Assembly: GCF_013317235.1 (NCBI RefSeq)
Contig: NZ_WLCM01000028.1
Span: forward strand, 3,219-54,785
Source of the DNA: Leisingera sp. ANG59
Lineage (GTDB): Bacteria > Pseudomonadota > Alphaproteobacteria > Rhodobacterales > Rhodobacteraceae
DNA: 51,567 nucleotides
Direction of reading: 5' to 3'
Shown here: positions 34,477 to 50,887 of the stretch, piece after piece
How the letters are laid out: each line of letters starts with the position of its first letter
Numbering within the stretch: the stretch's first letter is position 1
Made by a program: the position numbers and the translations under genes
The notes under the pieces: model-generated
Database searches by the model: none
Told to the model about the DNA's origin: nothing
What the model saw: the letters and a program-made list of their open reading frames with translations, nothing else

Positions 34477-34956
34477 TCATCCCGCCTGCCGCCCGCCTTG
34501 CAGCCCAATCGAGCGCGAGCGGTGTTTCAATTCATGGCGCTCCGACGCTGGTATCTTGGCAGCTTGCAGGCGGCGCAGGATATCAGACGGGATCGCCGTC
34601 GCGTGCGGTTCCGGCTTCTGCTGAACGTGAAGCTCCATGAACTCACCTGCGGCTGCAATTTTGTCGCCGGCTAGCATTTGCATGTGCAGGTGAAAACGCT
34701 TGCCGTCGCAGTCCAGCAGCCGCGTTTCGACACGGACACGGTCCCCTTCCTTCACTTCGCGCAGGAAAAACTTGTGATCCTCAAGCAGATAGATCGTGCA
34801 GCCGGTCCGTTCGCGATAGGCGGCGTCGAACCCGATCTCATCCTGCATCGCATCAACGGCCAGGCTGAACACCAACCCATAGTAGCTGTCCCGCATATGG
34901 CCGTTATAGTCGATCCATTCGGGCATAATCTTGGTCTCAAAGGCAAAGATCGTCAC
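34477..34956 (-). CDS. Thioesterase family protein (hotdog fold)
   Basis: This 159-residue hotdog-fold thioesterase has the family segment PEWIDYNGHMRDSYYGLVFS, with Asp near the catalytic position, and VEGDRV-like EVKEGDRVRVETRLL. It likely hydrolyses an acyl-CoA. A similar group serves L-carnitine/betainyl-CoA breakdown, but no other carnitine gene is here. The start ATG overlaps the amidohydrolase stop (ATGA). It is the last gene of the minus-strand unit of region E. The terminal residues after about 145 are low-complexity and basic. Confidence 0.8.
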   Translation of the reverse strand: MTIFAFETKIMPEWIDYNGHMRDSYYGLVFSLAVDAMQDEIGFDAAYRERTGCTIYLLEDHKFFLREVKEGDRVRVETRLLDCDGKRFHLHMQMLAGDKIAAAGEFMELHVQQKPEPHATAIPSDILRRLQAAKIPASERHELKHRSRSIGLQGGRQAG

Positions 34957-35840
34957 TGTGGTGCCTCCAGATTGTAGAACCGGGCCGCGGTGCCGCGAAA
35001 CACTGCGCTGTGCATCTCTGCCGGGACCAACCCGCGATAGGCCTGCGCCAGAGTGCGGTAATCAGAATACAGCCTGTCGACCGGGAAGTTCGACCCGAAC
35101 ATCACCCGATCGGCGCCGAACTGCGCCAGGCAGGTCTCGACAATCGGACGGATGCTGGCCACTGTCCAATTGTGTTCGAACATGCCCAGGCCTGACAGTT
35201 TGCAAGTGACATGGGGCAGACGCGAGAAGTGCTTCAGTTCCTTCCCCCAAGCCGTCAGCCCCTCGGCGGAGCGGTCATGGGGTGAGCCTGCATGACACAG
35301 CGCCACCGGGGTATCCGGGGCCTGCGCCAGAAGCCTTGCGGTTTTCTCCATCAGTTCCGGGATCAGCTGCAGATCAAAGCTGAGCCCCCGCTGTCCCGCC
35401 TCCTGCAATCCTGCCAGAAACCGCGGGTCATCCAGCAGCGCATTGGTGCCGGTTTGCGCGTCTTCGCCCGGTGCGCGGCCGATGATCTGGCGCACACCGC
35501 GCACGGTTGGCAGGCTCTGGAACCGGTCGAGCTGTTCGGACAGGTCCGGCGCGGTCAGGTCACAAAACACCACTTGTGCCATCGGCCAGTCCGGATTCGC
35601 TTCTGCCACCGACTGCACCCAGCGCGCCTCTGCCAGACCGTCCTCGGCGCCCACCTGGATATGCACCGATGCAATGACACCTTCGGCTGCGGCCTCGGTG
35701 CGGAATTCTTCCAGCAGGTAATCCCGCTGGATCGGCGCCGGATCGCCAAAGAACCGTGTCTCCCCCTTGGCCATCAGCCAGGGATAGCGAACCGCCCCAA
35801 GATCCCACAGGTGGTGATGCGCGTCGATCCACCCGGTCAT
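34953..35840 (-). CDS. Amidohydrolase-family (lactonase-like) hydrolase
   Basis: This 295-residue amidohydrolase_2 protein begins WIDAHHHLWDL with the metal-binding His-x-His. It has LPTVRGVRQIIGRAPG, LCHAGSPHD and the late ligand in MFGSNFPVDRLYSDY, as in 2-pyrone-4,6-dicarboxylate lactonase and L-fucono/rhamnono-lactonase-like enzymes. Lactone hydrolysis is the most common activity. It fits sugar-acid or aldonolactone degradation next to the carbohydrate-type transporter. Both ends overlap neighbours by 4 nt, so it is co-translated with the SnoaL-like protein. Confidence 0.86.
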   Translation of the reverse strand: MTGWIDAHHHLWDLGAVRYPWLMAKGETRFFGDPAPIQRDYLLEEFRTEAAAEGVIASVHIQVGAEDGLAEARWVQSVAEANPDWPMAQVVFCDLTAPDLSEQLDRFQSLPTVRGVRQIIGRAPGEDAQTGTNALLDDPRFLAGLQEAGQRGLSFDLQLIPELMEKTARLLAQAPDTPVALCHAGSPHDRSAEGLTAWGKELKHFSRLPHVTCKLSGLGMFEHNWTVASIRPIVETCLAQFGADRVMFGSNFPVDRLYSDYRTLAQAYRGLVPAEMHSAVFRGTAARFYNLEAPQ

Positions 35841-36841
35841 GTACGCGGCACCTCTGCCATGCGGGCCAGAATGTCGACGCCCTGCTGGTTCCAAAAATGC
35901 AGCAGATCGATGAAAATCCAGTTCTCGGCGAGTTTATCCCCCTCGCGGCGGTAGATGTCGATCACCCGGAACTCCCCGGCCTTGCCGGTGGCGGGCATGC
36001 CCATGAAGCCCCCGGTGGGACGGGCGGTGAAATTCGGCCAGCCGAAGAAGCCGCCAAAACTGCCCTCGGCCAGACGGCAGATGTGATTGGTCTTGGAGCG
36101 GTCTGTGAAACCCGCACGGAACGGCCCCGAGTGCTGCTTGGCATAGCGTTCGATCGTATAGGTGGCGCCGATCCCCGCAGGGCCCCACCAGATCATGTCC
36201 TCGGCCCAGGTCCGGCGCAGCTCATCCTCTAGGCTCAACCCGCTTTTCCACTGCCCGAGGTCGGAGATCATCGCGTTGATTGTTGCCAGGGTCTTCTCCC
36301 CCTCCTCCGCAGGCTGCGAATCGAACATCAGCCCGTCATGCGTCATCGGTCCGGGCTGCACCAGATGCGCGGCGGTCTGCGGCGGGAACGGCTGCAAACC
36401 CGCCTGCATCATCAGATGCGGGATGTCGAAATACATCGCCGTTTCGGTGACCTTGCCATCTTCAACCTTGTTGAACTCGCAATAGCGCAGGAACGCCATC
36501 TTGCCGGTCGGGGCGATCCCCAGCCAGGGCGCGTCGAACAGCCCCATCAGATGCCCCATCGAGACCACCCAGACCGAAGCGAACCCGTCCATCTCGTTGG
36601 CGCCCGCCATAAAGATGTCCTCACGCCTCTGCATATTCTTCAGTGACCCGCGCAAGGGGGTCCAGAACACGTCAGCGACGGCTTCGGCGCCCTGCTGCTC
36701 ATGGAACGGATGGTAGCCGCGCCAGATATGATTCGAGGCGTAGTACCGCGCAAGCACCTCGCCTGCTTGCCCTGCCTTCGACCCGTCCAGATCGGCGTAA
36801 AGGTTTCGGATCACTTGCTTTTCCGCTGAAAAGTCAATCAT
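35837..36841 (-). CDS. Two-domain SnoaL/NTF2-like protein, copy A
   Basis: This 334-residue protein consists of two SnoaL-like (NTF2 fold) domains, about 1-150 and 185-334, joined by a PGPMTHDGLMFDSQP linker. Domain 1 includes APTGKMAFLRYCEFNKVEDGK and domain 2 the shared WWGPAGIGATYTIERY and VIDIYRREGDKLAENWIFID. The fold is used by polyketide cyclases, isomerases and dehydratases. It resembles the product at 43359 in both domains and in the linker. ATG 36841 follows LacI-type operator 1 by 13 nt. Function unknown. It is the first gene of the minus-strand unit. Confidence 0.75.
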   Translation of the reverse strand: MIDFSAEKQVIRNLYADLDGSKAGQAGEVLARYYASNHIWRGYHPFHEQQGAEAVADVFWTPLRGSLKNMQRREDIFMAGANEMDGFASVWVVSMGHLMGLFDAPWLGIAPTGKMAFLRYCEFNKVEDGKVTETAMYFDIPHLMMQAGLQPFPPQTAAHLVQPGPMTHDGLMFDSQPAEEGEKTLATINAMISDLGQWKSGLSLEDELRRTWAEDMIWWGPAGIGATYTIERYAKQHSGPFRAGFTDRSKTNHICRLAEGSFGGFFGWPNFTARPTGGFMGMPATGKAGEFRVIDIYRREGDKLAENWIFIDLLHFWNQQGVDILARMAEVPRT

Positions 36842-36854
36842 GAGAGGTTGCCCC

Positions 36855-36870
36855 TTGCATACGTGTGCAA
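36855..36870. promoter_or_regulatory. LacI-type operator 1
   Basis: TTGCATACGTGTGCAA is a 16-bp near-perfect palindrome centred on CG, the typical form of LacI/GalR operators. A second copy lies at 36910-36925. This one sits 13 nt upstream of the SnoaL-like gene read leftward. Confidence 0.7.
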
Positions 36871-36909
36871 AAAAGTCTTGCCAAAAAGTCATCTATAAGT
36901 CTACCCTCT

Positions 36910-36925
36910 TTGCATTCGTATGCAA
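36910..36925. promoter_or_regulatory. LacI-type operator 2
   Basis: TTGCATTCGTATGCAA is a 16-bp palindrome with one mismatched pair, centred on CG, 55 bp from operator 1 (centre to centre). A TATAAG at 36894-36899 lies between the two and could be the -10 of the rightward ABC operon, so this site would overlap the transcription start. The likely binder is the LacI-family protein encoded at 45183. Confidence 0.7.
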
Positions 36926-36957
36926 AACGGCCGGTCACAGCCGGCAGAGGGGAAGCC

Positions 36958-38010
36958 ATGGCCGAGATACAATTGCAGAATGTTGGCAAGCGCTGGGGGT
37001 CGTTCGTCGGCGTCGACAACTTCGACCTGACCATCGCCGACAAGGAGTTCCTGGTCCTTCTGGGGCCTTCGGGCTGTGGCAAGACCACCACCATGCGGAT
37101 GATCGCAGGGCTGGAAGAAGCTTCTGAGGGCGACATTCTGATCGACGGTCAGCGCGTCAACGACATGGAGCCCAAGGACCGCGACGTGGCGATGGTGTTC
37201 CAGTCCTACGCGCTCTACCCCAATATGAACGTCTACGAAAACATCCGTTTTCCGCTGAAGGTGCGCGGCATCGACCCCAAGACTCATGACGAGAAGGTCC
37301 GCCGCGCCTCGGCGATGGTGGAACTGGACGACTTCCTGCACCGCAAACCGGCCGAACTCTCCGGCGGCCAGCGCCAGCGCGTTGCTTTGGCCCGCGCCAT
37401 TGTGCGCGAACCCAATGTCTTCCTGATGGACGAGCCGCTGTCAAACCTCGATGCCAAGCTCCGCGTCTCCACCCGCGCCCAGATCAAGAACCTCAGCCAC
37501 GAGCTGGCTGTGACAACGATCTACGTGACTCACGACCAGATCGAGGCGATGACCCTGGCCGACCGCGTCGTGGTGATGAAAAAGGGCGTGGTTCAGCAGG
37601 TGGGCTCACCGACCGAAATCTACGACCGGCCCGCCAATACGTTTGTCGCCAGCTTCATCGGCAACCCGGCGATGAACCTGATGGAGGGCGAGATCCAGGG
37701 CGGCACCTTCCGCGCAAAGAACGTGGAAATCAGCGGGCTGAACGCCCCGAACGGACCGCTCACACTGGGTTTCCGGGCCGAGGACGCCAGCATCGCGGCA
37801 CCCGGCGAAGGCCAGATCAACGCGCCGATCTACACGATGGAACTGCTGGGCGACGCAACGATGATCTCGGTGCGCGTGGGCGGGGCTCTGGTTTCGGTAA
37901 AGGCGGACAAGACCTTCCGGGCTGAAATTGGCCAGACGGTGTCGATCTCCGTGCCGCAGGGCATCTGCCACCTGTTTGACGGTCAAACCGGCGCGCGGAT
38001 CGGGGGTTGA
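36958..38010 (+). CDS. Carbohydrate-type ABC transporter ATP-binding protein (UgpC/MalK family)
   Basis: This 350-residue ATPase has Walker A GPSGCGKTTTMRMIAG, the signature LSGGQRQRVALARAI, Walker B FLMDEPLSNLDAK and the H-loop VTHDQIEAM. A C-terminal TOBE/regulatory domain is present (about 240-350). It powers the permeases encoded at 39410 and 40452. GAGGGGAAG precedes ATG 36958. It is first in the plus-strand unit, directly behind the two LacI-type operators. Placing the ATPase first is less usual but occurs in this family in rhodobacters. Confidence 0.92.
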   Translation: MAEIQLQNVGKRWGSFVGVDNFDLTIADKEFLVLLGPSGCGKTTTMRMIAGLEEASEGDILIDGQRVNDMEPKDRDVAMVFQSYALYPNMNVYENIRFPLKVRGIDPKTHDEKVRRASAMVELDDFLHRKPAELSGGQRQRVALARAIVREPNVFLMDEPLSNLDAKLRVSTRAQIKNLSHELAVTTIYVTHDQIEAMTLADRVVVMKKGVVQQVGSPTEIYDRPANTFVASFIGNPAMNLMEGEIQGGTFRAKNVEISGLNAPNGPLTLGFRAEDASIAAPGEGQINAPIYTMELLGDATMISVRVGGALVSVKADKTFRAEIGQTVSISVPQGICHLFDGQTGARIGG

Positions 38011-38098
38011 ACGCTCCCTGCCGGCGCATCCGCCACTGCAGTCCACAGGACGGGCGCAAACCGCCTGCATCCATTCCAGAAAAACCAGGGAGAATGAT

Positions 38099-39343
38099 AT
38101 GTTACTGAAACGACTTGCCGCAGCATCGCTGTTTGCCGGGCTGATGGGCTCGGCAGCTTTCGCGGCCAACTGCGGCCCCGAAGGCCAGTCAATCCGCATC
38201 CTGGCGAGCGACTTTCCAGCAATCCACGCGGTTGTCAATGCGGCCCGGGCCAATTGCGCAGACGCCGCAGCGGAATTCACCGCCAACCACACCACCGAGG
38301 CGCGCCAGATCATGAACGCGGCGCTGACGCCGAACCCGGCGGAATACACTTCGGTGATCCTCGCCAACGCCACGCTGACCCAGCTGATGAACGATGGTCT
38401 GGTCCGGCCGCTCAATGACCTGGTGGAGAAGTACAAGGACAGCATCCCGCCGAACGTGCTGATCACCATCGACGGCAACGTGATGGCGGTTGCCTTCATG
38501 GCCAACTCGCAGCACCTGTTCTCGCGCAAGGATATCCTGGAGCAAGCGGGTGTTGACAGCATCCCCGCATCCTATGAGGAAGTGCTGGAGGCCGCAGAGA
38601 AGATCCGCGCCGCGGGCATCATGGAACATCCCATCGCGATGAACCTGCAGACCGGCTGGAACGTGGGCGAAGTCTTCAACATGATCTATCTCGGCCACGG
38701 CGGCGAGTTCTTCGCACCCGGCTCTGCCGAACCCTCGATCAACAATGAGCAGGGCATCGCCACGCTGGAAACCATGAAGGCGCTGGCCGAATACGCCCAC
38801 CCGGACCACCTGACCCATGCCTCCAACGAGACCCAGGGCCTGTGGGAATCCGGCCAGGCGGCGCTGGCCGTCATGTGGGGCTCGCGCGGTGCGCCGATCC
38901 TGGATGACGAAGGTTCCACCGAGGAAGTGACCTCTAACACCGTCCTGTCCGCGGCCCCTACCGTCGGCGGCGGCTCGATCCCGGCGGCCACCCTGTGGTG
39001 GGATGGCATCTCCATTGCCTCCAATGTTTCCGATGAAGAAGCTGAGGCAACCTTCGCCGCGCTGATCAGCGGCCTGACCCCCGAAATGGTGGCGGAGAAC
39101 AACGACGACGCGGTCTGGCTGCTGCCGGGTTTTGAACCCGGACCGGCAGCAGCGGGCGTGGCCGGAACCGTGCAGGGCGGGGCCCGGCCCTATCCGATGA
39201 TCCCGCAGATCGGTCTGCTGCACGCAGCACTCGGTTCCGAACTCACCGACTTCCTGAAGGGTGGTGAAAGTGCCGAGCAGGCGCTGTCAGATGTCGAGAC
39301 CGCCTACCGGACCTCGGCCAAGGAAGCCGGCTTCCTCAAGTAA
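38099..39343 (+). CDS. ABC transporter substrate-binding protein, sugar type (family 1)
   Basis: This 414-residue extracytoplasmic binding protein has a Sec signal peptide (MLLKRLAAASLFAGLMG, cleavage near AFA). It shows the SBP_bac_1 layout: IRILASDFPAIHAVVNA, VILANATLTQLMNDGLVRPLNDLV near residue 95, and ALAVMWGSRGAPILDD near 250. It is likely to bind a sugar, polyol or glycoside, but the ligand is not shown. GGGAGA precedes ATG 38099. A hairpin-plus-T-run lies behind it before the permease genes. Confidence 0.9.
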   Translation: MLLKRLAAASLFAGLMGSAAFAANCGPEGQSIRILASDFPAIHAVVNAARANCADAAAEFTANHTTEARQIMNAALTPNPAEYTSVILANATLTQLMNDGLVRPLNDLVEKYKDSIPPNVLITIDGNVMAVAFMANSQHLFSRKDILEQAGVDSIPASYEEVLEAAEKIRAAGIMEHPIAMNLQTGWNVGEVFNMIYLGHGGEFFAPGSAEPSINNEQGIATLETMKALAEYAHPDHLTHASNETQGLWESGQAALAVMWGSRGAPILDDEGSTEEVTSNTVLSAAPTVGGGSIPAATLWWDGISIASNVSDEEAEATFAALISGLTPEMVAENNDDAVWLLPGFEPGPAAAGVAGTVQGGARPYPMIPQIGLLHAALGSELTDFLKGGESAEQALSDVETAYRTSAKEAGFLK

Positions 39344-39356
39344 ACCTCCCCGACTG

Positions 39357-39382: not shown

Positions 39383-39409
39383 CCCGGACTGAATACCGAG
39401 ACCCACACC

Positions 39410-40441
39410 ATGAAGCACCGCACATTTTTCTGGTTCATCCTGCCGACTCTTTCCGCGATGATCCTCTTCATCGCGCTGCCCATCGTCTCGGTTTTCATCC
39501 AGTCGCTGTTTGTCGAGCACGAGCAGGTTCTGGTGGTTTCCGAGAGCTGCGGCCCGTTCGGCTGCACGCCCACGACCACTGTTGATACCGCGGCCACAGC
39601 CGCACTGCAGGAAGAGCAGCCGCTAGGCCGGTACAACGGGCTCAACACCTACATCAACCGCTCGCACCTGGCCTTCGTCGAAGTCGGCGAAGCCTGGCGC
39701 AGCACGGAAACTTTCGGCGCGTTCTGGAAACAGATCATCAACCTGCCCTTCTACCGCGCGCTGATCTTCACGCTGACTTACACGGCGGTGGTCACTCCGG
39801 TCGTTATCGCGCTTGGCCTGGCAATTGCAGTGGGCGTCAACAACCTGCCCCGCATCCTCAAGGGCCCGTCGATCTTCATCTCGCTGCTGCCGTTCCTTGT
39901 CACACCGCTGGTTGGTTCCCTGATCCTGTTCTGGATGGTCGACAGCGACGGCGTCATCGGTGCCACCATCCAGCGCATCTTCAACGATCCCTCGCTGAGC
40001 CTGAAGGCTTCCACCGCGCTCACCTGGACCATGCTGATTGTCTATGGTGTCTGGCACACCCTGCCGTTCAGCTTCATCACCTTCTACGCAGGCCTCCAGA
40101 CCGTGCCCGAGGACACCATGGAGGCGGCGATGATTGACGGCGCGTCGAAGTGGCAGCGCATGATCCATGTGGTCGTGCCGCATCTGGCACCGCTGATGTC
40201 CTTCGTGACGCTGATGCTTTTGATGGACAACTTCCGCGTCTTCGAGCCGATCGTCAGCTTCAAGGCCGAGGCCCACGCCACCTCGCTCAGCTGGATCATC
40301 TACAACGACCTGCGCGAAAGCGGTAATCCGCTCTACGGCTCGGCCGGGGCGACCTCGATGATGACCATCATCGGCGTGGTCATCCTGCTGACCCCGGTGC
40401 TGATCCGCACCTGGCGCGACTTCAACCGCAAAGCACACTGA
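39410..40441 (+). CDS. ABC transporter permease, sugar type, component 1 (UgpA/MalF-like)
   Basis: This 343-residue inner-membrane permease has six membrane segments, beginning with LPTLSAMILFIALPIVSVFI. A large periplasmic loop follows (about residues 38-110), and the EAA-loop EAAMIDGASKWQRMIHVVVPHLAPL contacts the ATPase. Together with the next gene product it forms the heterodimeric channel. No strong Shine-Dalgarno precedes ATG 39410, which may lower expression relative to the binding protein. Confidence 0.9.
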   Translation: MKHRTFFWFILPTLSAMILFIALPIVSVFIQSLFVEHEQVLVVSESCGPFGCTPTTTVDTAATAALQEEQPLGRYNGLNTYINRSHLAFVEVGEAWRSTETFGAFWKQIINLPFYRALIFTLTYTAVVTPVVIALGLAIAVGVNNLPRILKGPSIFISLLPFLVTPLVGSLILFWMVDSDGVIGATIQRIFNDPSLSLKASTALTWTMLIVYGVWHTLPFSFITFYAGLQTVPEDTMEAAMIDGASKWQRMIHVVVPHLAPLMSFVTLMLLMDNFRVFEPIVSFKAEAHATSLSWIIYNDLRESGNPLYGSAGATSMMTIIGVVILLTPVLIRTWRDFNRKAH

Positions 40442-40451
40442 GGGCACGATC

Positions 40452-41372
40452 ATGGCAACCAATGCACAATCCTCCATCGCAGTCCCGGCAGTGAACCCGA
40501 AATCCCGCTCCCGCGTCCCGCTGCTCACGGTGGTTTCGCTGGCGCTCGTGGCGCTCTGGCTGATCATCGCTGCTTTCCCCTTCTTCTGGACCTTTTGGGG
40601 CAGCTTCAAGGTGCAGTCGGACTTCTTCTCCAAGACCGACTGGCAGAACGCCATCTACGGGGTCAACACGATCCGGCAGACCGGCAGCGCCTTCACGCTC
40701 GAAGGCTACCAGGGCGCCTGGGTGGACGAGGAATTCTGGCGCAACGTCATCAACTCCGGGATCGTGGTGTTCTTCACCGTGGTGATCTCACTCACCTTCG
40801 GCACTCTGGGCGGCTACGCCCTCGCCCGCTCCGGCCGCCGCTATGCCTTCTGGCTCCTGATGGCCGCGCTAGTGTTCCGCGCCATGCCGCATATCACCCT
40901 GGTTTCGGGCTACCTGCTGCCGTTCTTCGAGTGGAACATCTGGGGCATCCTGCCGACCACAATCATCGTGCTGGTGGCAATCAACCAGCCTTTCACCCTG
41001 TGGATGCTGCACTCCTTCTTCCTCAACATCCCCAAGGACATGGACGAAAGCGCCATGGTCGACGGCTGCACCCGCTTCCAGGCCTTCCGCCACGTGATTA
41101 TTCCGGTGATGTGGCCCGGCGTTATCACCACCGGCCTGTTCAGCTTCCTGCTCGCCTACAACGACTTCGCGGTGACCGCGATGCTGCTCAGCTCGGAAAA
41201 CGAGACCATCATCCCCGCGATCAACAGCTTCCTCGGTACCACTCAGGTCGAGGGCAAGGTGATGTACGCCGTCGCCGCCGTGGTCTCCGCCACCGCCCCG
41301 CTGTTCGTGCTGATCCTGTTCTTCCAGCGACAGATCGTCAGCGGGCTGACCGCAGGCGCGGTGAAGGGCTGA
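40452..41372 (+). CDS. ABC transporter permease, sugar type, component 2 (UgpE/MalG-like)
   Basis: This 306-residue permease has six membrane segments (first at about 24-45), the conserved EAA-loop ESAMVDGCTRFQAFRHVIIPVMWPG and the final QRQIVSGLTAGAVKG typical of the group. Its stop (TGA) overlaps an ATG that opens a 32-codon frame. It completes the importer with the ATPase at 36958. Confidence 0.91.
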   Translation: MATNAQSSIAVPAVNPKSRSRVPLLTVVSLALVALWLIIAAFPFFWTFWGSFKVQSDFFSKTDWQNAIYGVNTIRQTGSAFTLEGYQGAWVDEEFWRNVINSGIVVFFTVVISLTFGTLGGYALARSGRRYAFWLLMAALVFRAMPHITLVSGYLLPFFEWNIWGILPTTIIVLVAINQPFTLWMLHSFFLNIPKDMDESAMVDGCTRFQAFRHVIIPVMWPGVITTGLFSFLLAYNDFAVTAMLLSSENETIIPAINSFLGTTQVEGKVMYAVAAVVSATAPLFVLILFFQRQIVSGLTAGAVKG

Positions 41373-41507: not shown

Positions 41508-42038
41508 ATGAAAGGCTCCCGCCCCGAACAAGCCGTGCTGACCAAAGACACGGACCTGAGCAAGACCGAAGAAACCCGCGCCGTGATCGAGAACATGGTG
41601 GACGGGTTGAATGACCACCGGATCAGCGACATCGGCGAATTCTTCTCCGAAGGCTTCCGCTGGATGGGCAATCAGGGCTGCGGCACCAAGACCGGGCTGA
41701 AGGAATTCCAGGACAACTGGCAGCGCCCGTTCCAGGCTGCGTTCTCTGACAAGGTCTGCATCGACGAGGCCCGCCTCTACATGGGCGAATGGGCCGCCGC
41801 CTTCGGCCGCCAGGAGGCCACCCACAGCGGCACCTTCCTCGGCATCGAACCCACCGGCAAGCGTGTCGAGATCCGTTACATGGACTTCTGGAAGGTCCAG
41901 GACGGCAAGATCGTGGACAACTGGGTGAACGTCGATTTCGCCCATGTCGCCGCCCAGCTCGGCGTTGACCTGTTCAACGGCGAGGGCTGGGAAGCTTTTG
42001 ACCGCGGGGAGAAAACCCCTCCGCGCCCCGACAATTGA
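41508..42038 (+). CDS. Single-domain SnoaL/NTF2-like protein, copy B
   Basis: This 176-residue protein has one NTF2-like domain: [19 protein letters not shown] near residue 38, then [35 protein letters not shown] near 110-145, the standard SnoaL ending. Family members include polyketide cyclases and small dehydratase or isomerase-like enzymes; catalytic residues cannot be fixed from sequence alone. AAGGAAC precedes the ATG. It lies between the transporter and the dehydrogenase-like gene. Confidence 0.78.
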
Positions 42039-43362: not shown

Positions 43363-44414
43363 CCACCGATACCCACACCCAAAACAAGGCGCTGATCGCG
43401 CCGATGCGGGAGGCGATGCGCGACTTCAGCGAAAAGGGCGTGCGCGCCGCGCTGGAGGAGCTGATCGCGCCGGACGCGGTGGTGCATATGTGCCACCCGT
43501 TCGGCGACCTGACCGGGCCCAAGGAGCTCTATGACACCTGCTATGCGCCGCTGCTGCAGTCCATGCCGGACCTGGAGCGCCGCGACTGGATCGTCATGGG
43601 CGGGCGCACCGAGCATGGCGGCGACTGGATCGGCTGCGGCGGCCATTACTACGGCACCTTCGTGCAGCCCTGGCTGGACATCCCGCCGACCGGCCACCTG
43701 ACCCACATGCGCTTCCACGAGTTCTACCGGTTTGAGGAAGGCCGCGTGGTCGAGGTCCAGACCATCTGGGACATCCCCGAGGTGATGATGCAGGCAAACG
43801 CCTGGCCGATGGCGCCCTCGCTCGGCCTCGAGTTCTGCATCCCCGGCCCGGCCACACACGACGGCATCGTGCCGGGGCCCTGGGACGAGGAGAAATCCCA
43901 GGCCTCCTGCGCGCATATCGTCGACATGCTGACCCACCTGAAGAAACACCCGAGCCAGGGCGGCCCGGAGGTGATGGAGATGCCGAAGTTCTGGCACGAG
44001 CGGATGAACTGGTACGGGCCTGCGGGCATCGGCACCGGCCGCGGCATCTCGGGGTTCCGCAACTGGCACCAGATCCCGTTCCTGAACGGCATGCCCGACC
44101 GCGGCCAGTATCTGGACGAGATCACCTATCATTTCTTCGGCGACGGCGAATACGCCGCGGTGACCGGCTGGCCAAACATGATCCAGACCGTGACCCACGA
44201 CGGCTGGATGGGCATCGCGCCCTCGGGCCAGCGCATCACCATGCGCAGCCTCGACTTCTGGCGGCTGGAGAACGGCAAGATCCGGGAGAACTGGGTGACG
44301 GTCGACCTGCTGGACGCCTACCGCCAGCTGGGCGTAGACGTCTTTGCGCGCCTGCGCGAGTTCAACAAGGCCCGCGTGCCAGGCGGCATTCCATTTCCCG
44401 TCGGCGAGGCATGA
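43359..44414 (+). CDS. Two-domain SnoaL/NTF2-like protein, copy C
   Basis: This 351-residue protein has two NTF2-like domains joined by an [20 protein letters not shown] linker, and the core [16 protein letters not shown] in the second half. It is a clear relative of the copy at 35837-36841, sharing the PGP-THDG linker and GPAGIG. The first domain carries [20 protein letters not shown] and the second [21 protein letters not shown], both the family SnoaL end. Function is unknown, but presence on both sides of the operators suggests a core pathway step. It overlaps the dehydrogenase gene. Confidence 0.78.
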
Positions 44415-44415
44415 C

Positions 44416-45183
44416 ATGACCCAATTCCCCAGCACCCCCAGTTTCAGCCTGAAGGGCAAGCGCGCGCTTGTCGCGGGCGCCTCCTCCGGCATCGGCATGG
44501 CCTCTGCCGTGGCACTGGCGGAGCATGGGGCCGAGGTCACCCTTGCAGCGCGCCGCACGGACGCGCTGCAGGAGGTCGCCGCGGAAATGGCCGCGCGCGG
44601 CTGGGCCGCCAAGGTGCTTCAACTGGATGTGGGCGACGTTGCAGCCACGGCAGAGGCGGTGGCGGCAAACGGGCCCTTCGACATCCTGGTGAACTCCGCC
44701 GGCACCGCCCGCCACGGCAAGGCCGTCGACACCGCGCCGGAAGATTTCGACGCGGTGATGGATGTGAATGTCCGCGGCGCCTACTTCCTGACCCAGGCCG
44801 TCGCCAAGGGGCTCATCGCCGCGGGCCGCCCCGGCTCGCTGATCAATATCTCCAGCCAGATGGGCCACGTCGGCGGCCGCGAGCGCGCGGTCTACTGCGC
44901 GTCCAAGTTCGCGGTCGAAGGCTTCACCAAGGCGATGGCGCTGGAATTCGGCCCCGGCAAGATCCGCGTCAACACCATCTGCCCGACCTTCATCCTCACC
45001 GACCTCACCCGGCCCACCTTCGATGATCCGGAAAAACGCGCCTGGGTGCTCGACAAGATCAAGCTCGGCCGCCCGGGCGAGATCGAGGACATCATGGGCG
45101 CGGTGGTCTACCTCGCCTCGGACGCTTCGGCCCTGGTCACCGGCACCGCAATGCTGGTGGACGGCGGCTGGACGGCAGACTGA
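44416..45183 (+). CDS. Short-chain dehydrogenase/reductase (SDR), region E
   Basis: This 255-residue classical SDR has the cofactor-binding VAGASSGIGMASAVALAEHG, NSAGTA, Ser in NISSQMG and Tyr-x-x-x-Lys (VYCASKFAVEG), and ends GTAMLVDGGW. It likely oxidises a secondary alcohol, for example a sugar carbon. Its stop overlaps the LacI ATG (TGATG). In glycoside-oxidation pathways an SDR or similar makes a ketone for later elimination; this link is inference. Confidence 0.88.
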   Translation: MTQFPSTPSFSLKGKRALVAGASSGIGMASAVALAEHGAEVTLAARRTDALQEVAAEMAARGWAAKVLQLDVGDVAATAEAVAANGPFDILVNSAGTARHGKAVDTAPEDFDAVMDVNVRGAYFLTQAVAKGLIAAGRPGSLINISSQMGHVGGRERAVYCASKFAVEGFTKAMALEFGPGKIRVNTICPTFILTDLTRPTFDDPEKRAWVLDKIKLGRPGEIEDIMGAVVYLASDASALVTGTAMLVDGGWTAD

Positions 45184-46202
45184 TGGGCGCGAGCAAGGTC
45201 ACTTCCATGGACGTCGCCCGCCGCGCAGGCGTCAGCCAGTCGGCGGTCAGCCGGGTGTTCACGCCCGGCGCTTCGGCCTCGAAGAAGACCATCGAGAAGG
45301 TGCGCAAGGCGGCTGACGAACTGGGCTACCGGCCCAACGTGCTGGCCCGCGCAATGGTGTCCGGCAAGAGCGGCATCATCGGACTGGTGGTCGCCTACCT
45401 CAACAACCAGTTCTACCCCGAGGCGCTGGAGAAGCTCACCAACGCGCTGCAGGAGCGCGGCTATCACGTTCTGGTCTTCCTGGCCTCCCATTCGGCCGGC
45501 AACATCGACCGCGTGGTCGAGGAGATCCTGGATTTCCAGGTCGACGGCATCATTGCGGCCTCGGTTGCGCTGTCCTCGGACCTCTCCGCCCGCTGCCAGG
45601 CGGCCGGCGTGCCGATGGTGCTGTTCAACCGGGCGCAGGACGATGCCTCGATGTCGGCGGTGACCTCCGACAACGTGGCGGGCGGACGCAAGGCAGCCGA
45701 GTTCCTGCTCGCGGGCGGGCACCGGAAGATCGGCTATATCGCGGGCTGGGAAGGCGCCTCCACCCAGCGCGACCGCGAGGCGGGCTTCCGCGCCGGGCTG
45801 GAAGCGGGCGGCGCCACGCTGCATGCCCGCGAGGTCGGCAATTTCGTCACCGAACAGACCCAGGAAGCCACCCGCCGCATGTTCGCAAGCGACCCGCCGG
45901 ATGCGGTTTTTGTGGCCAATGATCACATGGCCATCGCGGTAATGGACACCCTGCGTTTCGAACTCGGCCTCAGCGTGCCCGACGATGTCTCTGTCATCGG
46001 CTACGACGATGTCACTGTCGCCGCCTGGCCTACCTATAATCTCACCACTGTGCGGCAGCCCGCCAACCGCATGGTGGCCGAAACCGTCGACATCATCCTG
46101 GCCAAGATCGAGGACGCCGACGTGCGCCCGCGCCGGGTCGAGATCGACGGCCCACTCATCGTCCGCGGCTCTGCCCGCATACCTGAAGGATGGAAGACAT
46201 GA
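45183..46202 (+). CDS. LacI-family transcriptional regulator
   Basis: This 339-residue LacI/GalR protein has the N-terminal helix-turn-helix (SMDVARRAGVSQSAVSRVF, about 7-26), a hinge-helix ending GYRPNVLARAMVSG and the periplasmic-binding-protein-like effector domain. It is embedded in the operon it probably controls. The CG-centred palindromes at 36855 and 36910 are of the type this family recognises. Effector unknown, probably a pathway sugar or its product. Its stop overlaps the next ATG (46199). Confidence 0.9.
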   Translation: MGASKVTSMDVARRAGVSQSAVSRVFTPGASASKKTIEKVRKAADELGYRPNVLARAMVSGKSGIIGLVVAYLNNQFYPEALEKLTNALQERGYHVLVFLASHSAGNIDRVVEEILDFQVDGIIAASVALSSDLSARCQAAGVPMVLFNRAQDDASMSAVTSDNVAGGRKAAEFLLAGGHRKIGYIAGWEGASTQRDREAGFRAGLEAGGATLHAREVGNFVTEQTQEATRRMFASDPPDAVFVANDHMAIAVMDTLRFELGLSVPDDVSVIGYDDVTVAAWPTYNLTTVRQPANRMVAETVDIILAKIEDADVRPRRVEIDGPLIVRGSARIPEGWKT

Positions 46203-47173
46203 AGGGTTTTAACCCCAAGTTCAAAGACTTCCCGGATTACATCATTGGCATCACCAAGGAGATCTGGGAAGACCGCGGCATCGCCACGCTGCATGACTAC
46301 TACGCGCCCGACATCGTCGTGCGCTCGCCCGCCTCGGTGGTGACCGGCAACGAGGGCGTGATCGCCGCAACCATGGCGACGCTTGCCGAGTTCCCCGACC
46401 GCACCCTCCTGGGCGAAGATGTCATCTGGTCCGGCACCCCGGAGGAGGGCATGTTGTCCTCGCACCGGCTCCTGTCCACCGCGACCCACCTGGGCGACGG
46501 GGTCTACGGCAAGGCGACCGGCAAGAAGCTCACCTACCGGATCCTCGCCGACTGCCACGCGATCAACAACCAGATCAACGACGAATGGCTGATCCGCGAT
46601 CAGGGTGCCATCGTGCGTCAGATTGGGTGGGACCCCAAGGAATACGCCCGCGATCTGATCGCGCGCGAGGGCGGCCCTGAGGCCTGCGTACAGCCCTACA
46701 CCCCAGCCAACGAGCAGCCCGGCCCTTACAAAGGCAACGGCAACGACAATGAATGGGGCCAGAAATACGCCGATATCCTGACGCGGATCATGAATGCCGA
46801 CATGCGCGCGATTGAATCCGAATACGACCGCGCAGTGCAGTCGGAATATCCCGGCGGCATCACCGGCCACAGCTGGGGTCCGGTGGACCGCTTCTGGATG
46901 GGGCTGCGCGCCTCGTTCCCGAACGCCGAGTTCAAGATCCACCACCAGATCGGCCGCGACGATCCAATGATGCCGCCCCGCGCTGCGTTGCGCTGGACGC
47001 TGCATGGCAAGCACGACGGCTGGGGCGTCTTCGGCAAACCGACCGGCGCCGAGGTCTTCGTGCTGGGCGCCAGCCACGCCGAATTCGGCCCCTGGGGACT
47101 GCGCCGCGAATACGCGCTGTTCGATGAAACCTCGGTCTGGAAACAGATCCTGCTGCAGACCGGCGATCTCTGA
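46199..47173 (+). CDS. Two-domain SnoaL/NTF2-like protein, copy D
   Basis: This 324-residue protein has two NTF2-like domains: YYAPDIVVRSPASVVTGNEGV near residue 32 and GITGHSWGPVDRFWMGLRASF near 220. It is more divergent than copies A and C, but has the same two-domain size and the WGP motif. The ATG at 46199 is used, as it overlaps the LacI stop (ATGA) and has AAGGA upstream; an ATG 9 nt earlier is also possible. Function unknown. Confidence 0.72.
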   Translation: MKGFNPKFKDFPDYIIGITKEIWEDRGIATLHDYYAPDIVVRSPASVVTGNEGVIAATMATLAEFPDRTLLGEDVIWSGTPEEGMLSSHRLLSTATHLGDGVYGKATGKKLTYRILADCHAINNQINDEWLIRDQGAIVRQIGWDPKEYARDLIAREGGPEACVQPYTPANEQPGPYKGNGNDNEWGQKYADILTRIMNADMRAIESEYDRAVQSEYPGGITGHSWGPVDRFWMGLRASFPNAEFKIHHQIGRDDPMMPPRAALRWTLHGKHDGWGVFGKPTGAEVFVLGASHAEFGPWGLRREYALFDETSVWKQILLQTGDL

Positions 47174-47290: not shown

Positions 47291-47329
47291 CTCAGCCGTT
47301 TCAAACCAGATTTCAAGAGGATACCAGCC

Positions 47330-48289
47330 ATGAGCACCATCCAAGAACGCATCGTCCGCTACGGCGAACTGAAACCCTGTAAGACCGCCTTCATCGACGC
47401 CCACACCCCGGGCTCGGACCAGAAGGAAAACTTCACCATCATCGGCGGCGGCGTCAGCGAAAGCCCCGACCAGCACGTCCACATCACCGACAAGATCGGC
47501 TTCAACATCGGCGCCGCGGGCCAGCCGCCGAAATGCCGCAACTCGCTGCACAGCCACACCACCGCCGAAGTGTTCTTTGTCGCCAAGGGCCGCTGGCGCT
47601 TCTTCTGGGGCCGCTATGGCACTGCGGGGGAGTTCATCGCCGAGGAAGGCGATATCTTCAACATCCCCACCGGCATCTTCCGCGGCTTCGAAAACGTCGG
47701 CCAGGACTATGGCATGATCATGTCGATCCTCGGCGGCGACGATGCTGGCGGCGGCGTCACCTGGGCGCCGCAGGTGATCGAGGACGCGCAGGCCCACGGG
47801 CTGATGCTGGGTAACAATGGCGTGCTGTATGACAGCAAGAAGGGCCAGGACCTGCCGCACAACGTGCAACCTATGCCAGTGCTGACCGAAGAGCAGATGA
47901 AGGCTTACCCCGAGGTCCCGGTCGAGGACGTCGTTGGCAAATACGTCGCCCGCTACTGGGACCTGATGGCGCTGGCGGCGGACAAGCCTGCCAAAGTCAT
48001 CGGTGAAGATGCGCTGATCAAGGACAAGCCCGGTTTCGAGGTCGATTTCCTGGGCCGCGGCTCTGCCGTGACGGATCAGGTCAAGGCGGAAAAGCCGGTG
48101 GTTCTGATGCCCGCCAGCGGCCATTGGCGCATCACCATCAACGAGGTCGAGACCACCTTGTCAAACGGCGACACCGCGCTGGTGCTGCCCGGTGAAAGCT
48201 ACAGCGCCGAACCGTCGATGACCGGAAACGCGGGCCTCTACCGCATCACTGCAACCGACGATCCGGCCGGCGCCACCTGGCAGGGCTGA
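47330..48289 (+). CDS. Cupin-domain protein, about 320 residues
   Basis: This is a 319-residue protein. The first cupin barrel has NSLHSHTTAEVFFVAKGRWRFFW (His-x-His with Glu) and GDIFNIPTGIFRGFENVG; a second smaller barrel follows near residues 255-319 with VLMPASGHWRITINEV and GDTALVLPGES. It may be a bicupin isomerase, dioxygenase or lyase. The metal site of the first barrel looks intact; the second lacks obvious His ligands. AAGAGGA precedes the ATG. Its substrate is likely a pathway intermediate, but is unknown. Confidence 0.8.
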   Translation: MSTIQERIVRYGELKPCKTAFIDAHTPGSDQKENFTIIGGGVSESPDQHVHITDKIGFNIGAAGQPPKCRNSLHSHTTAEVFFVAKGRWRFFWGRYGTAGEFIAEEGDIFNIPTGIFRGFENVGQDYGMIMSILGGDDAGGGVTWAPQVIEDAQAHGLMLGNNGVLYDSKKGQDLPHNVQPMPVLTEEQMKAYPEVPVEDVVGKYVARYWDLMALAADKPAKVIGEDALIKDKPGFEVDFLGRGSAVTDQVKAEKPVVLMPASGHWRITINEVETTLSNGDTALVLPGESYSAEPSMTGNAGLYRITATDDPAGATWQG

Positions 48290-48327
48290 TGACCGCAGTT
48301 ACCTCCTGTGGGGCGCCGTCCGCTGCA

Positions 48328-48365
48328 CAGGGGGTGTACAGGGGGTGTACGCATGTCACCCCCTG
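48328..48365. repeat. Tandem 11-bp repeat that competes for one hairpin arm
   Basis: CAGGGGGTGTA occurs twice in tandem (48328-48338, 48339-48349). CACCCCCTG (48357-48365) is the exact complement of the first nine bases of either copy. The nearer copy gives a 9-bp stem with a 9-nt loop, and the farther copy the same stem with a 20-nt loop. It lies 16 nt before the start of the MetE-fold gene. Confidence 0.55.
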
Positions 48366-48381
48366 AAATCAGGGAGATTGG

Positions 48382-49503
48382 ATGATGGTCAAGACAACCC
48401 ATGTCGGCTCGCTGCCCCGGACCCAGAAGGTGGTGAATTTCATCTTCGCCCGCGAGCGGAAGGAACCTTTCGACCAGGCGGAATTCGACGCCTGCATGTC
48501 GGCTGCCGTTTCTGAAACTGTCCGCAAACAGGTTGCCGCGGGGGTAGATATCGTCAGCGACGGCGAGACCTCCAAGATCTCCTATGCCACCTACGTCAAG
48601 GACCGCTACACCGGCTTTTCCGGCGACAGCCCGCGCAATGCGCCTGCCGATCTGAAGATGTTTCCGGGCTTCCTGCAACGGCTGTCAGACGACGGCGGCA
48701 CGCCGCAATATGCCCGCCCCATGTGTACCGGCGAGGTGCGCTCCAAAGGCCAGGCTGAGCTGGAAAAGGACATCGCCAACCTCAAGACTGCCTTGGCAGA
48801 GCACGGCATGGGACGCGGTTTCATGAACGCGGCGTCGCCCGGGGTCATCTCGCTGTTTTTGCAGAACGATTTCTATCCCACACGCGAGGCGTACCTGGCC
48901 GCGCTGGCCGATGCGATGAAGGCTGAATATGAGACCATCGTGGCCGCCGGGCTGGATCTGCAGCTGGACTGCCCCGACCTGGCGCTGTCGCGGCACATGC
49001 TGTTCAATGACTTGTCCGACGCGGAGTTCATCAAGATTGCAGACTTGCATGTGGAGGCATTGAACCACGCGCTGCAAAACGTGCCGCAGGAGCGCGTCCG
49101 GGTGCATATCTGCTGGGGCAACTACGAAGGCCCGCATTGCTGCGACATTCCGATGGACACAGTGTTCACCACTCTGATGAACACCAAATCGCGCTATGTT
49201 CTGTTTGAAACCTCCAATCCGCGCCACGCCCACGAGTGGACCGTGTTCCGCGACCGCAAGGCAGAGATCCCGGAGGACAAGGTGCTGGTGCCCGGCGTGG
49301 TAGATACTACCACCAATTTTGTAGAACACCCGGAACTGGTCGCGCAGCGCATTGAAAGATTTACGGAAATTGTCGGCTCTGACCGGGTGGTCGCGGGCTC
49401 GGACTGCGGCTTTGGTACCTTTGCAGGCTTTGGCTCAGTGGACCCGGACATCGCCTATGCCAAGCTCGCCGCGCTGTCGGAGGGGGCTCGGCGCGTCAAA
49501 TGA
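48382..49503 (+). CDS. MetE-fold zinc protein, epoxyalkane:CoM transferase-like
   Basis: This 373-residue protein of the cobalamin-independent methionine synthase C-terminal fold has the zinc site His242-x-Cys244 (VHICWGNYEG) and Cys342 (GSDCGFGTF). This length, and HICWGNY followed by PHCCD, are like the epoxyalkane:coenzyme M transferase group (XecA) rather than full MetE (about 750 residues). A thiol is activated on zinc and attacks an electrophile such as an epoxide or methyl group. Nothing here makes coenzyme M, so the thiol acceptor may differ. ATG 48382 has AGGGAGA upstream (or 48385). Its stop overlaps the following gene. Confidence 0.78.
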   Translation: MMVKTTHVGSLPRTQKVVNFIFARERKEPFDQAEFDACMSAAVSETVRKQVAAGVDIVSDGETSKISYATYVKDRYTGFSGDSPRNAPADLKMFPGFLQRLSDDGGTPQYARPMCTGEVRSKGQAELEKDIANLKTALAEHGMGRGFMNAASPGVISLFLQNDFYPTREAYLAALADAMKAEYETIVAAGLDLQLDCPDLALSRHMLFNDLSDAEFIKIADLHVEALNHALQNVPQERVRVHICWGNYEGPHCCDIPMDTVFTTLMNTKSRYVLFETSNPRHAHEWTVFRDRKAEIPEDKVLVPGVVDTTTNFVEHPELVAQRIERFTEIVGSDRVVAGSDCGFGTFAGFGSVDPDIAYAKLAALSEGARRVK

Positions 49504-50195
49504 CACCGCTTGTCCTGATCCCCGGCATGATGTGCGATGCGCGGCTGTTCAACCCCCAGATTGCGGCGCTGTCCGGCAGCGTTCCGATCGTGACCGCGCC
49601 AATCGGCGGTCATGGCACAATGGCGGCGCTGGCGGCGGAGCTGCTCTCTTACGCGCCGCCGCGCTTTGCACTGGCGGGCCTGTCGATGGGCGGCATCCTG
49701 GCGATGGAAATCCTCCGCCAGGCGCCAGAGCGGATCGCAGGCTTGGCGCTGATGGACACCAACCCGCTGGCCGAAAGGGATGAGGTCAAGGCCCGCCGCG
49801 CGCCGCAGATCGAAGCCGTCCGCCAAGGCGGGCTGCGCCGGGTGATGGCCGAGGAGATGAAGCCGAACTACTTGACGGAAGGGCCCAACCGGGCCGCGAT
49901 CCTTGATCTGTGCATGGACATGGCCTTGGATCTGGGTCCGGACGTTTTCATCAATCAGTCCACAGCCTTGCGCGACCGCATCGACCAATGCGAAACGCTG
50001 CGCGCCTTCACCGGCCCGGCGCTGGTGCTGTGCGGTCGCGGCGACATCCCCTGCCCCGTCGCCCGGCATGAGCTGATGCACGAATTGATGCCGCAAAGCC
50101 GGCTGGAAATCATCGGAAACGCCGGCCATCTGCCGGTTCTGGAACAACCTGAACAAACCACGGCGGCACTAAACCGCTGGCTGGAGACGATATGA
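49500..50195 (+). CDS. Alpha/beta-hydrolase fold protein
   Basis: This 231-residue hydrolase has the nucleophile elbow GLSMGG with Ser62, a possible acid in CGRGDIPCPV and the catalytic His in GNAGHLP near the end. The short lid suits small esters or thioesters. It overlaps both neighbours by 4 nt (ATGA), tying it to the MetE-fold and RraA-like proteins. Substrate unknown. Confidence 0.86.
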   Translation: MTPLVLIPGMMCDARLFNPQIAALSGSVPIVTAPIGGHGTMAALAAELLSYAPPRFALAGLSMGGILAMEILRQAPERIAGLALMDTNPLAERDEVKARRAPQIEAVRQGGLRRVMAEEMKPNYLTEGPNRAAILDLCMDMALDLGPDVFINQSTALRDRIDQCETLRAFTGPALVLCGRGDIPCPVARHELMHELMPQSRLEIIGNAGHLPVLEQPEQTTAALNRWLETI

Positions 50196-50887
50196 AACCA
50201 TCGCTGCTAAACCTGCTGAATAAGGTCGACACGCCCACCGTCTGCAACGCCATCGAAGTGGCTGAGGGAAAGCGCGGTTTCAACGCCTTCACCCGCGGCA
50301 CCATGCTGTGTTCGGACCCGGATGCCGGCGCCATGGTGGGCTATGCCCGCACCGCCAAGATTGCCGCGGTGAACCCGCCGGAAGAACCGCCCGAAGTGAT
50401 CCGCAAGCGCCGCATGGACTACTACCGGCACATGGCTCTCGGCACCGGGCCTTCGATCACCGTGGTCGAGGATCTGGACTTCCCCCATTGCATCGGCGCC
50501 TACTGGGGCGAGATCAACACCACCGTGCATAAAGGCTTCGGCATCAACGGCGCGCTGACCAACGGCGTGATGCGGGATCTGGGCGATCTGCCCGAGGGCT
50601 TCCCGGTTGTTGCTGGCTCCATTGGCCCCAGCCACGGGTTCGTACACGTCAAGGAAGTCGGAACACCCGTCAGCATCTTCGGCCTGGAAATCAATGACGG
50701 CGATCTGGTGCATGCGGACCGTCACGGCGCACTGGTGATCCCCCCAGAGGTGTTGGGTGATCTCGAACAGGCCATCCTCAAACTGCTCGAAACAGAGAAA
50801 CTGATCCTGGAGCCTGCGCGCAAGCATGGGTTCGACTTCGACGCATTCGAGGAAGCATGGCAAGCGTTTGAAGCGGCCAGGACTTAG
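50192..50887 (+). CDS. RraA-family protein (HMG/oxaloacetate aldolase-like)
   Basis: This 231-residue protein of the RraA/DlpA fold has the class II pyruvate aldolase signature Asn-Gly-x-x-Arg128-Asp129 (LTNGVMRDLGDL), with Arg and Asp in the places used for pyruvate enolate and metal binding. It probably cleaves a 4-hydroxy-2-oxo acid to pyruvate plus a second product, or decarboxylates oxaloacetate, rather than acting as an RNase E inhibitor. It is the last gene of region E and a natural end step for a sugar-like pathway. No clear terminator follows. Confidence 0.82.
   Translation: MKPSLLNLLNKVDTPTVCNAIEVAEGKRGFNAFTRGTMLCSDPDAGAMVGYARTAKIAAVNPPEEPPEVIRKRRMDYYRHMALGTGPSITVVEDLDFPHCIGAYWGEINTTVHKGFGINGALTNGVMRDLGDLPEGFPVVAGSIGPSHGFVHVKEVGTPVSIFGLEINDGDLVHADRHGALVIPPEVLGDLEQAILKLLETEKLILEPARKHGFDFDAFEEAWQAFEAART

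Follow-up and report, generated by a model that had tools for sequence, protein, structure and literature searches.

A candidate two-module catabolic pathway of marine bacteria with tandem SnoaL-like proteins and a putative third type of HisD-fold dehydrogenase

The stretch of DNA discussed here (the window: 51,567 nucleotides, positions 3,219 to 54,785 of contig NZ_WLCM01000028.1, or G000:C30:3219-54785 in our numbering) comes from Leisingera sp. ANG59, whose genome spans 5.33 Mb in 108 contigs, and carries a gene cluster (34477-50887; Table 1) with an ATP-binding cassette (ABC) importer, four SnoaL-like proteins (SnA to SnD), a HisD-fold dehydrogenase that we call HisD3, a short-chain dehydrogenase/reductase (SDR), a cupin, a MetE-fold protein and an RraA-like protein. 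We lean, by a small measure, towards the view that the cluster encodes an undescribed and widespread marine pathway in which tandem SnoaL-like proteins would lead to a polyhydroxy acid, a third class of HisD-fold enzyme would oxidise it and aldol cleavage would follow, the block of importer, SnC, LacI and SnD being horizontally movable. The proposal that it forms one LacI-repressed catabolic regulon of two modules, one (A) for uptake and SnoaL chemistry and one (B) a degradative core around HisD3, has in our judgement an even chance of being right. All genes that an earlier note on this DNA had placed in the cluster were found again in the open reading frame (ORF) listing and in Pfam and NCBIfam scans, and its description of a catabolic, LacI-regulated cluster with a carbohydrate-type importer was confirmed by the gene set and the paired operators. 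Its statement that no described pathway has this gene set also stands for the open-licence PMC literature, most subscription papers and bioRxiv lying outside that scope.

The nearest solved relatives of HisD3 are the dehydrogenases HpsN of 2,3-dihydroxypropane-1-sulfonate (DHPS) degradation (6e-113), followed by histidinol dehydrogenases, and the protein passes the NCBIfam hisD model (422.5 bits against a cut-off of 243.8). Burchill et al. (PMC11382572) list the zinc-binding and catalytic residues, give His126 in the motif G-R-Y-A/S-H as the mark of HpsN, and give the loop motif of HisD as G-S-A-P-L. In our alignment of 94 rows (93 from fetched loci plus the window; 89 distinct sequences), the zinc ligands Q248, H251, H411 and D352, the catalytic E318 and H319, and K353 are each present in 89 of 89 distinct sequences, and D46 is also retained in all 94 rows, so that the active site is indeed intact, as the earlier note had it. 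The HpsN motif test failed: the position of His126 is Met in all 89 distinct sequences and Arg123 is replaced by Lys in 86 of them and by Gly in the other 3, the motif reading GK[FY]P[ML], rarely GGYPM or GAFPM, and ending in Leu in the more distant members L203, L204, L206 and L234; L165 (45% identity, counted apart) has Leu at the place of His126 too. The loop motif did not discriminate, as the window (GGKFPM), the canonical HisD of the genome (GLASYP) and 4g07 (GTASYP) all depart from it. Three other HisD-fold proteins are encoded in the genome, namely L197, presumed to be its true canonical HisD, and L198 and L199, which carry the HpsN motif GRYSH. The latter two (on G000:C32 and G000:C43) are probable DHPS dehydrogenases, and one adjoins an SDR. 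Because HisD3 lacks His126 and two other genes of the genome have the HpsN motif, we rejected an HpsN identity for it. In a phylogenetic tree a clade (98/100) unites the three HpsN rows, and the 14 HisD3 rows lie on one side with weak support (58/73). Judged from these alignments, HisD3 would be neither canonical HisD nor HpsN but a third type of HisD-fold dehydrogenase, in which the alcohol-to-acid chemistry should be intact and the group recognised by His126 changed, and, with Lys353 kept, the substrate may well be anionic or strongly polar. This is also an annotation issue, as a public record labels HisD3 as hisD. Moreover, one survey counted HpsN transcripts at a cut-off of 167 bits, according to PMC11131964, and HisD3 scores 375 bits, far over that cut-off, against the HpsN-type protein of its own genome, a query that differs from the survey's own.

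When 244 genomes sampled from the order were searched with SnC, in a way that takes in SnA-type paralogues too, relatives (at 1e-20 or better) came up in 113 of them, spread over 51 of 100 genera. The SnC family and HisD3 occurred together in 110 of these genomes, SnC alone in 3, HisD3 alone in 17 and neither in 114, with an odds ratio of 246 as against 6.0 for the HpsN control in the same genomes (81, 32, 39 and 92), both ratios being computed with no account of kinship. Sixteen loci carry importer genes with SnC only, some of them with SnD (four short or partial look-alikes, L101, L118, L125 and L133, are left out), and a divergent LysR-type gene stands in 7 of the 16. HisD3 is encoded elsewhere in 15 of these 16 genomes, full-length in thirteen (72-93%), as an 85% fragment at a contig end in one and as a 63% fragment in another, and was not found in the remaining genome, of 1.8 Mb; the idea that the detached importer-SnC unit is a stand-alone minimal pathway was thus rejected. 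The 13 HisD3 regions that were read in these genomes hold SnC (at least 50% identity) in eight cases and lack it in five, of which L245, L247 and L250 contain many other cluster genes, and therefore could have the missing SnC supplied by the detached unit, while L243 and L244 contain little besides HisD. A lone SnC in L105, taken up as a pathway hint, was rejected too, as the locus looks like a junction, with trimethylamine-methyltransferase-family, FAD oxidoreductase, aldehyde dehydrogenase and dihydrodipicolinate synthase-family genes on one flank and type VI secretion genes on the other.

The converse situation was read in 16 of the 17 genomes with HisD3 only (G188 was left out). In 13 of the 16, no more than 1.5 kb separates HisD3 from an SDR gene, and cupin, alpha/beta hydrolase (ABH) or RraA genes accompany HisD3 in L227, L228, L229 and L235. 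Five loci have genes for a tripartite ATP-independent periplasmic (TRAP) importer near HisD3, identified by Pfam in L224, L226 and L235 and by likeness to these in L227 and L237. Two loci have a gene for a GarL-like HpcH aldolase (L226 by Pfam, L224 by likeness). As TRAP systems usually carry organic acids, HisD3 and SDR, with or without cupin, ABH and RraA, look like an acid-handling core, and the importer and SnoaL proteins look like a funnel depending on it. The modular evidence would thus place transport and SnoaL proteins upstream, and HisD, SDR, cupin, ABH and RraA downstream, unlike the tentative order in the earlier note, where SDR oxidation comes before the SnoaL-like step. In one SnC-less genome (L239, G108), a Sulf_transp-family gene is near the HisD3-SDR pair. 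In Halomonas urmiana (L093), the importer, SnC, LacI and SnD are 82-92% identical to those of the window, as against 70% for HisD, 57% for SDR, 52% for SnA, 49% for RraA and 40% for the cupin, and the funnel block was probably acquired alone, by horizontal transfer. The same Halomonas locus has two nearly identical HisD3 copies.

Both operators of the cluster are 16-bp near-palindromes with a central CG, and a scan of the entire genome allowing one mismatch to TTGCATNCGNATGCAA returned the two of them and one site that has no CG centre. At three mismatches the window holds 4 sites, which is not above chance (mean 2.65), and therefore only the two strong sites count. An ATPase gene could be placed in 92 distinct loci (a term that here leaves out eight locus pairs representing the same place fetched twice), 77 of which are complete in the sense that both HisD and LacI are present. 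Near the ATPase start, these 77 loci show two operator-like sites in 53 cases, one in 19 and none in 5, and with up to two mismatches they contain 125 sites in the 28,490 bases around the ATPase start, compared to 19 in 1,561,213 bases elsewhere. The 11 distinct loci with no LacI have no site in 6 cases, one in 3 and two in 2; no site was seen in 2 of the 4 loci with LacI but no HisD. The spacing of 54-56 bp recurs in several other genomes. A scan for remote operators in 25 genomes yielded 15 sites outside the main cluster, and six were inspected. In two genomes (G050 and G016) whose main cluster (L049, L075) lacks HisD and SDR, the remote operator is directly upstream of a detached HisD with the SDR beside it, and in a third (G104), where neither RraA nor lactonase was seen in the main locus, it lies between divergent detached lactonase and RraA genes. 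HisD, SDR, lactonase and RraA are regulon members in some genomes, in fact, and the LacI-family protein is presumed to read the operators. Whereas the earlier note had allowed that the genes might prove not to be co-regulated, the conserved operators and these remote sites favour co-regulation, with exceptions.

The count of four NTF2/SnoaL-like proteins, of which SnA, SnC and SnD have two domains and SnB one, was upheld by Pfam, each protein scoring above the gathering score (SnoaL-like, PF07366/PF12680). The predicted structure of SnC (predicted local distance difference test, 83.8; predicted template modelling (TM) score, 0.88) has its closest folds among single-domain cyclases such as IdmH and SnoaL, and single-domain cyclase-type proteins were also returned by a profile search of solved structures. 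Matches spanning both domains were the polyether epoxide hydrolases Lsd19 and MonB, with poor superposition (TM about 0.3-0.4, root-mean-square deviation 15-17), and identity among the 50 structure matches listed was 12-27%. SnC is invariant in 85 of 361 columns in 18 sequences and in 120 of 351 in 26 sequences, and its conserved Asp299, which we take to be catalytic, falls in the stretch aligned to SnoaL-type cyclases. A scan of viral contigs with SnC gave 33 matching stretches, none of them a relative. On a plasmid of the haloarchaeon Halobellus limi (L084), five SnoaL-like genes are accompanied by genes for an ABC importer, a MetE-fold protein and a member of the aminomethyltransferase family.

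With regard to the remaining proteins, the substrate-binding protein (SBP) has weak solved relatives, NagB2, MalE3, a sorbitol SBP and SmoF among others, and is less well conserved than the enzymes, its identity ranging over 39.8-93% and reaching 50% in 21 of 37. The MetE-fold protein matches MetE families generically (98 bits at best, against a cut-off of 406), with 3rpd as its nearest solved relative; the earlier label of an epoxyalkane-coenzyme M transferase-like protein found no support in these matches far below cut-off, no direct comparison with that enzyme having been made. Across 33 to 108 rows per family, duplicates included, at least 97% conservation was found for N118, S147, Y160 and K164 of SDR, S62, D182 and H210 of ABH, H74, H76 and E80 of the cupin, H242, C244, E276 and C342 of the MetE-fold protein, R128, D129 and D132 of RraA, and H8, H10, H183 and D255 of the lactonase-like protein, all of which we take to be catalytic or metal-binding. 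The RraA-like protein misses the cut-off of the LigK-type (4-carboxy-4-hydroxy-2-oxoadipate) aldolase (26.6 bits versus 304.5), and its conserved R128-D129, presumably of the active site, may reflect a related activity. An optional S-adenosylmethionine (SAM) methyltransferase gene is found between the cupin and MetE-fold genes in 18 distinct loci (e.g., L139:14950-15573), and an optional GMC oxidoreductase gene in the importer stretch in 8, one member of each having been scanned with Pfam.

The cluster is widely distributed. Among the first 40 loci compared, which were picked mostly from the best SnC matches and are thus biased to good matches, and some of which are cut, identity of at least 50% was seen for SnC in 40, SnD in 38, cupin, LacI and permease B (PermB) in 37 each, the ATPase in 36, HisD and SDR in 35 each, the MetE-fold protein in 31, SnB in 30, ABH and RraA in 29 each and SnA in 22. 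Seven core genes (ATPase, HisD, SnC, SDR, LacI, SnD and cupin) are co-present in 32 of these 40 loci, and also occur together in named Ruegeria, Leisingera, Roseibium and Oceanospirillaceae loci, the closest named locus over the entire cluster being that of Leisingera aquaemixtae (L091; 91-100% per gene). The best 80 of 556 relatives in a scan of species genomes include some from Ruegeria, Tropicimonas, Roseibium, uncultured SAR116, Halomonas, Leucothrix and an Oceanospirillaceae assembly, some of these loci being incomplete clusters. Of 299 genomes drawn from across the phylum, 15 had a match at 1e-30. Ten of these belong to the family of the window; four of the other five were read (G250, G482, G514 and G309; G339 was left out). 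The G250, G482 and G514 loci contain HisD (65-69%), SDR, cupin and SnoaL proteins with other importers, namely a TonB receptor and sodium symporter in G250 and G514, and TRAP and symporter genes in G482, and G309 and a second G482 region show SnA- and LacI-type matches with no HisD in the stretch. Relatives of SnC are also found on 23 plasmid records, and the cluster itself on plasmid records of Ruegeria conchae, Marinovum algicola and Ensifer adhaerens. As almost half of the genomes sampled from the order have the two signature genes, and relatives occur in SAR116, Halomonas, Leucothrix and others, the substrate is probably some dissolved compound that is common. In Phaeobacter piscinae (L087) and Marinovum algicola (L089), SnoaL and ABC genes have SBP56-type genes (methanethiol oxidase family) in their vicinity, adjoining dimethylsulfoniopropionate genes in the latter, and in Vibrio pelagius a sarcosine oxidase gene is among the neighbours. 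Such neighbours are at most circumstantial hints at substrates like mycosporine-like amino acids, arsenosugars, methylthio sugars or relatives of dimethylsulfoniopropionate.

In the pathway that we propose, module A, made of the ABC importer, SnA to SnD and the MetE-fold protein, would bring in a carbohydrate-like compound, which the SnoaL-like proteins, acting early, may turn into a small polyhydroxy acid. In module B, made of HisD3 and SDR, often with cupin, ABH and RraA, the fully conserved chemistry of HisD3 suggests that this enzyme, with zinc and NAD, would oxidise a terminal CH2OH next to a hydroxyl by four electrons, yielding a carboxylate. The SDR, a partner to HisD3 much as HpsO is to HpsN, would act on a hydroxyl of that intermediate, the product would be opened by the lactonase and the hydrolase, and RraA, or in other lineages an HpcH/HpaI aldolase, might cleave it to pyruvate and a small aldehyde acid. 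The conserved operator and the small set of candidate enzymes make the substrate directly testable. Several observations weigh against this proposal, beginning with the paralogues and the kinship that may affect the counts above. The MetE-fold protein, the cupin and the optional methyltransferase and GMC oxidoreductase have no clear place in the scheme, and the SnC-less L228, L229, L231 and L236 keep some importer, SnD-like, MetE-fold or thioesterase (TE) genes, so that the border between the modules is not sharp. As for the regulon, 5 of the 77 complete loci have no operator at the ATPase start, 5 of the 11 loci lacking LacI show one or two operator-like sites nevertheless, three of the six remote sites inspected (G013, G025 and G049) have no gene of the pathway in their vicinity, and the detached HisD3 of G013 shows no operator within one mismatch.

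Since the MetE-fold protein and the methyltransferase lack an explanation in our scheme, the main rival is a dealkylation pathway. Its substrate would be methylated, a sulfonium compound or one that bears an epoxide; the central zinc-thiolate transferase would be the MetE-fold protein, and the SnoaL domains would serve as epoxide hydrolases or elimination catalysts. The conserved H242, C244, E276 and C342, presumably zinc-related, the 18 distinct loci with a SAM methyltransferase gene close to MetE, the combination of genes seen in Halobellus and the epoxide hydrolases among the both-domain matches of SnC are all in its favour, but these matches superpose poorly, as noted above, the MetE gene is found in 31 of 40 loci (some of them cut), and no corrinoid- or folate-dependent demethylase family was detected by Pfam among the cluster genes of the window, so that we deem this reading unlikely, if worth keeping in view. 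That the tandem SnoaL proteins are non-enzymatic cytoplasmic carriers or sensors of the ligand, leaving catalysis to HisD3, SDR, the hydrolases and RraA, also appears rather unlikely: SnC does travel with the importer in the detached units, and the NTF2-like fold has non-catalytic members, as the abstract of PMC3924330 states, but the strong conservation of SnC, Asp299 included, speaks for an enzyme.

Given its solved relatives, HisD3 could also be read as an HpsN serving a variant DHPS or organosulfonate pathway, for which the importer would bring in DHPS or a sulfo-sugar. The sulfonate-contacting Lys353 is kept, an SDR accompanies HisD3 as HpsO does HpsN, and SmoF is among the weak SBP relatives; yet we regard this as improbable, and a C3 sulfonate is disfavoured as the substrate, given the loss of the diagnostic His126 to Met throughout the distinct sequences (and a Leu ending in the four distant members), the two other proteins of the genome with the GRYSH motif, and the outcome of the neighbourhood test for hpsO, hpsP and sulfolyase genes, in which the SDR was present but neither a zinc medium-chain dehydrogenase nor a sulfolyase was found by scans that covered the cluster genes and not the rest of the genome. 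If the genes served to make or tailor a polyketide-like metabolite, this would account for the likeness to SnoaL- and IdmH-type cyclases, which are polyketide enzymes; no polyketide synthase is among the scanned cluster genes, however, and the importer genes, LacI operators, wide distribution and content of aldolase-like and dehydrogenase genes make this highly improbable.

The features of the locus are collected in Table 1, where the start codons of SnA, ATPase, SBP and HisD were read from the sequence. The start of SnA is probably at 36841, because the longer ORF overlaps the first operator. Two of the genes are peripheral. TE, for which the top match in NCBIfam is to the C-terminal part of carnitine 3-dehydrogenase, is seldom kept (at least 50% identity in 6 of 119 distinct loci and 1 of the first 40 loci), and the lactonase-like amidohydrolase (LAC), found at the same threshold in 31 of 119 and 6 of 40, scores 124.5 bits against an NCBIfam equivalog cut-off of 400 for L-fuconolactonase. 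Adjoining the cluster, a DehI-family (2-haloacid dehalogenase type) gene immediately follows an HxlR regulator gene (window 33026-34355). DehI has a 99% identical copy in Leisingera aquaemixtae (L091), and a counterpart in none of the first 40 loci and in 1 of 119 distinct loci (50% identity).

Table 1. Genes and operators of the cluster, in window positions
Feature	Position	Strand	Basis and remarks
TE, 4HBT_2 thioesterase-like	34477..34956	-	PF13279, 5e-27
LAC, Amidohydro_2 amidohydrolase, L-fuconolactonase-like	34953..35840	-	below that family's cut-off
SnA, two-domain SnoaL-like	35837..36841	-	longer ORF to 36892
LacI-type operator 1, TTGCATACGTGTGCAA	36855-36870		operator scans; inside longer SnA ORF
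LacI-type operator 2, TTGCATTCGTATGCAA	36910-36925		operator scans; 55 bp from operator 1
ABC importer ATPase, UgpC/MalK type	36958..38010	+	Pfam/NCBIfam; start codon 36958
SBP, SBP_bac_1 periplasmic substrate-binding protein	38099..39343	+	Pfam; start codon 38099
ABC permease A, BPD_transp_1	39410..40441	+	Pfam
ABC permease B (PermB), BPD_transp_1	40452..41372	+	Pfam
SnB, single-domain SnoaL-like	41508..42038	+	PF07366, 2e-20
HisD3, HisD-fold NAD/zinc dehydrogenase, motif GKFPM	42049..43362	+	Histidinol_dh Pfam; start codon 42049
SnC, two-domain SnoaL-like, signature gene	43359..44414	+	Pfam
SDR oxidoreductase	44416..45183	+	gluconate 5-dehydrogenase/KduD neighbourhood, under cut-offs
LacI-family regulator, presumed reader of operators	45183..46202	+	Pfam/NCBIfam
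SnD, two-domain SnoaL-like	46190..47173	+	Pfam; no NCBIfam match
Cup, cupin protein	47330..48289	+	Pfam; H74/H76/E80 conserved
MetE-fold protein, Meth_synt_2	48382..49503	+	Pfam; H242, C244, E276, C342 conserved
ABH, alpha/beta hydrolase, enol-lactonase-like below cut-off	49500..50195	+	S62, D182, H210 conserved
RraA/HMG-aldolase-like protein	50192..50887	+	R128, D129, D132 conserved

Compared with known systems, the cluster shares most with the DHPS system HpsN-HpsO-HpsP of Roseobacteraceae, as described in PMC11382572 and PMC11131964: both have a zinc- and NAD-dependent dehydrogenase of the HisD fold, which agree in their zinc ligands, E318, H319 and K353, and both have an SDR partner, the one of the DHPS pathway being similar to gluconate dehydrogenase (PMC11131964). 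They differ in that HpsN has GRY[AS]H where HisD3 has its own motif, and hence no His126, and in the sugar-type ABC importer, four SnoaL-like proteins, cupin, MetE-fold protein and RraA found here. With canonical HisD, HisD3 has in common the fold, the zinc ligands, a score above the hisD cut-off and presumably the two-step alcohol-to-acid chemistry, but identity to the canonical protein of the same genome (L197) is 35-36%, the loop is different, and the HpsN-type Lys353 is absent from the aligned stretch of the latter. The SnoaL and IdmH cyclases and the epoxide hydrolases Lsd19 and MonB share the NTF2-like fold with SnC, and the last two also its two-domain arrangement, although identity is low, both domains superpose poorly and the context here is catabolic, with an importer. 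Finally, non-phosphorylative sugar-acid pathways end in GarL/HpcH or RraA-type aldolases, and the SDR of the gluconate 5-dehydrogenase/KduD group, the lactonase-like and the pyruvate-aldolase-like proteins of the cluster are reminiscent of them; in place of an IlvD or enolase-superfamily dehydratase, neither of which is among the scanned cluster genes, the cluster has SnoaL-like proteins and a HisD-fold oxidase.

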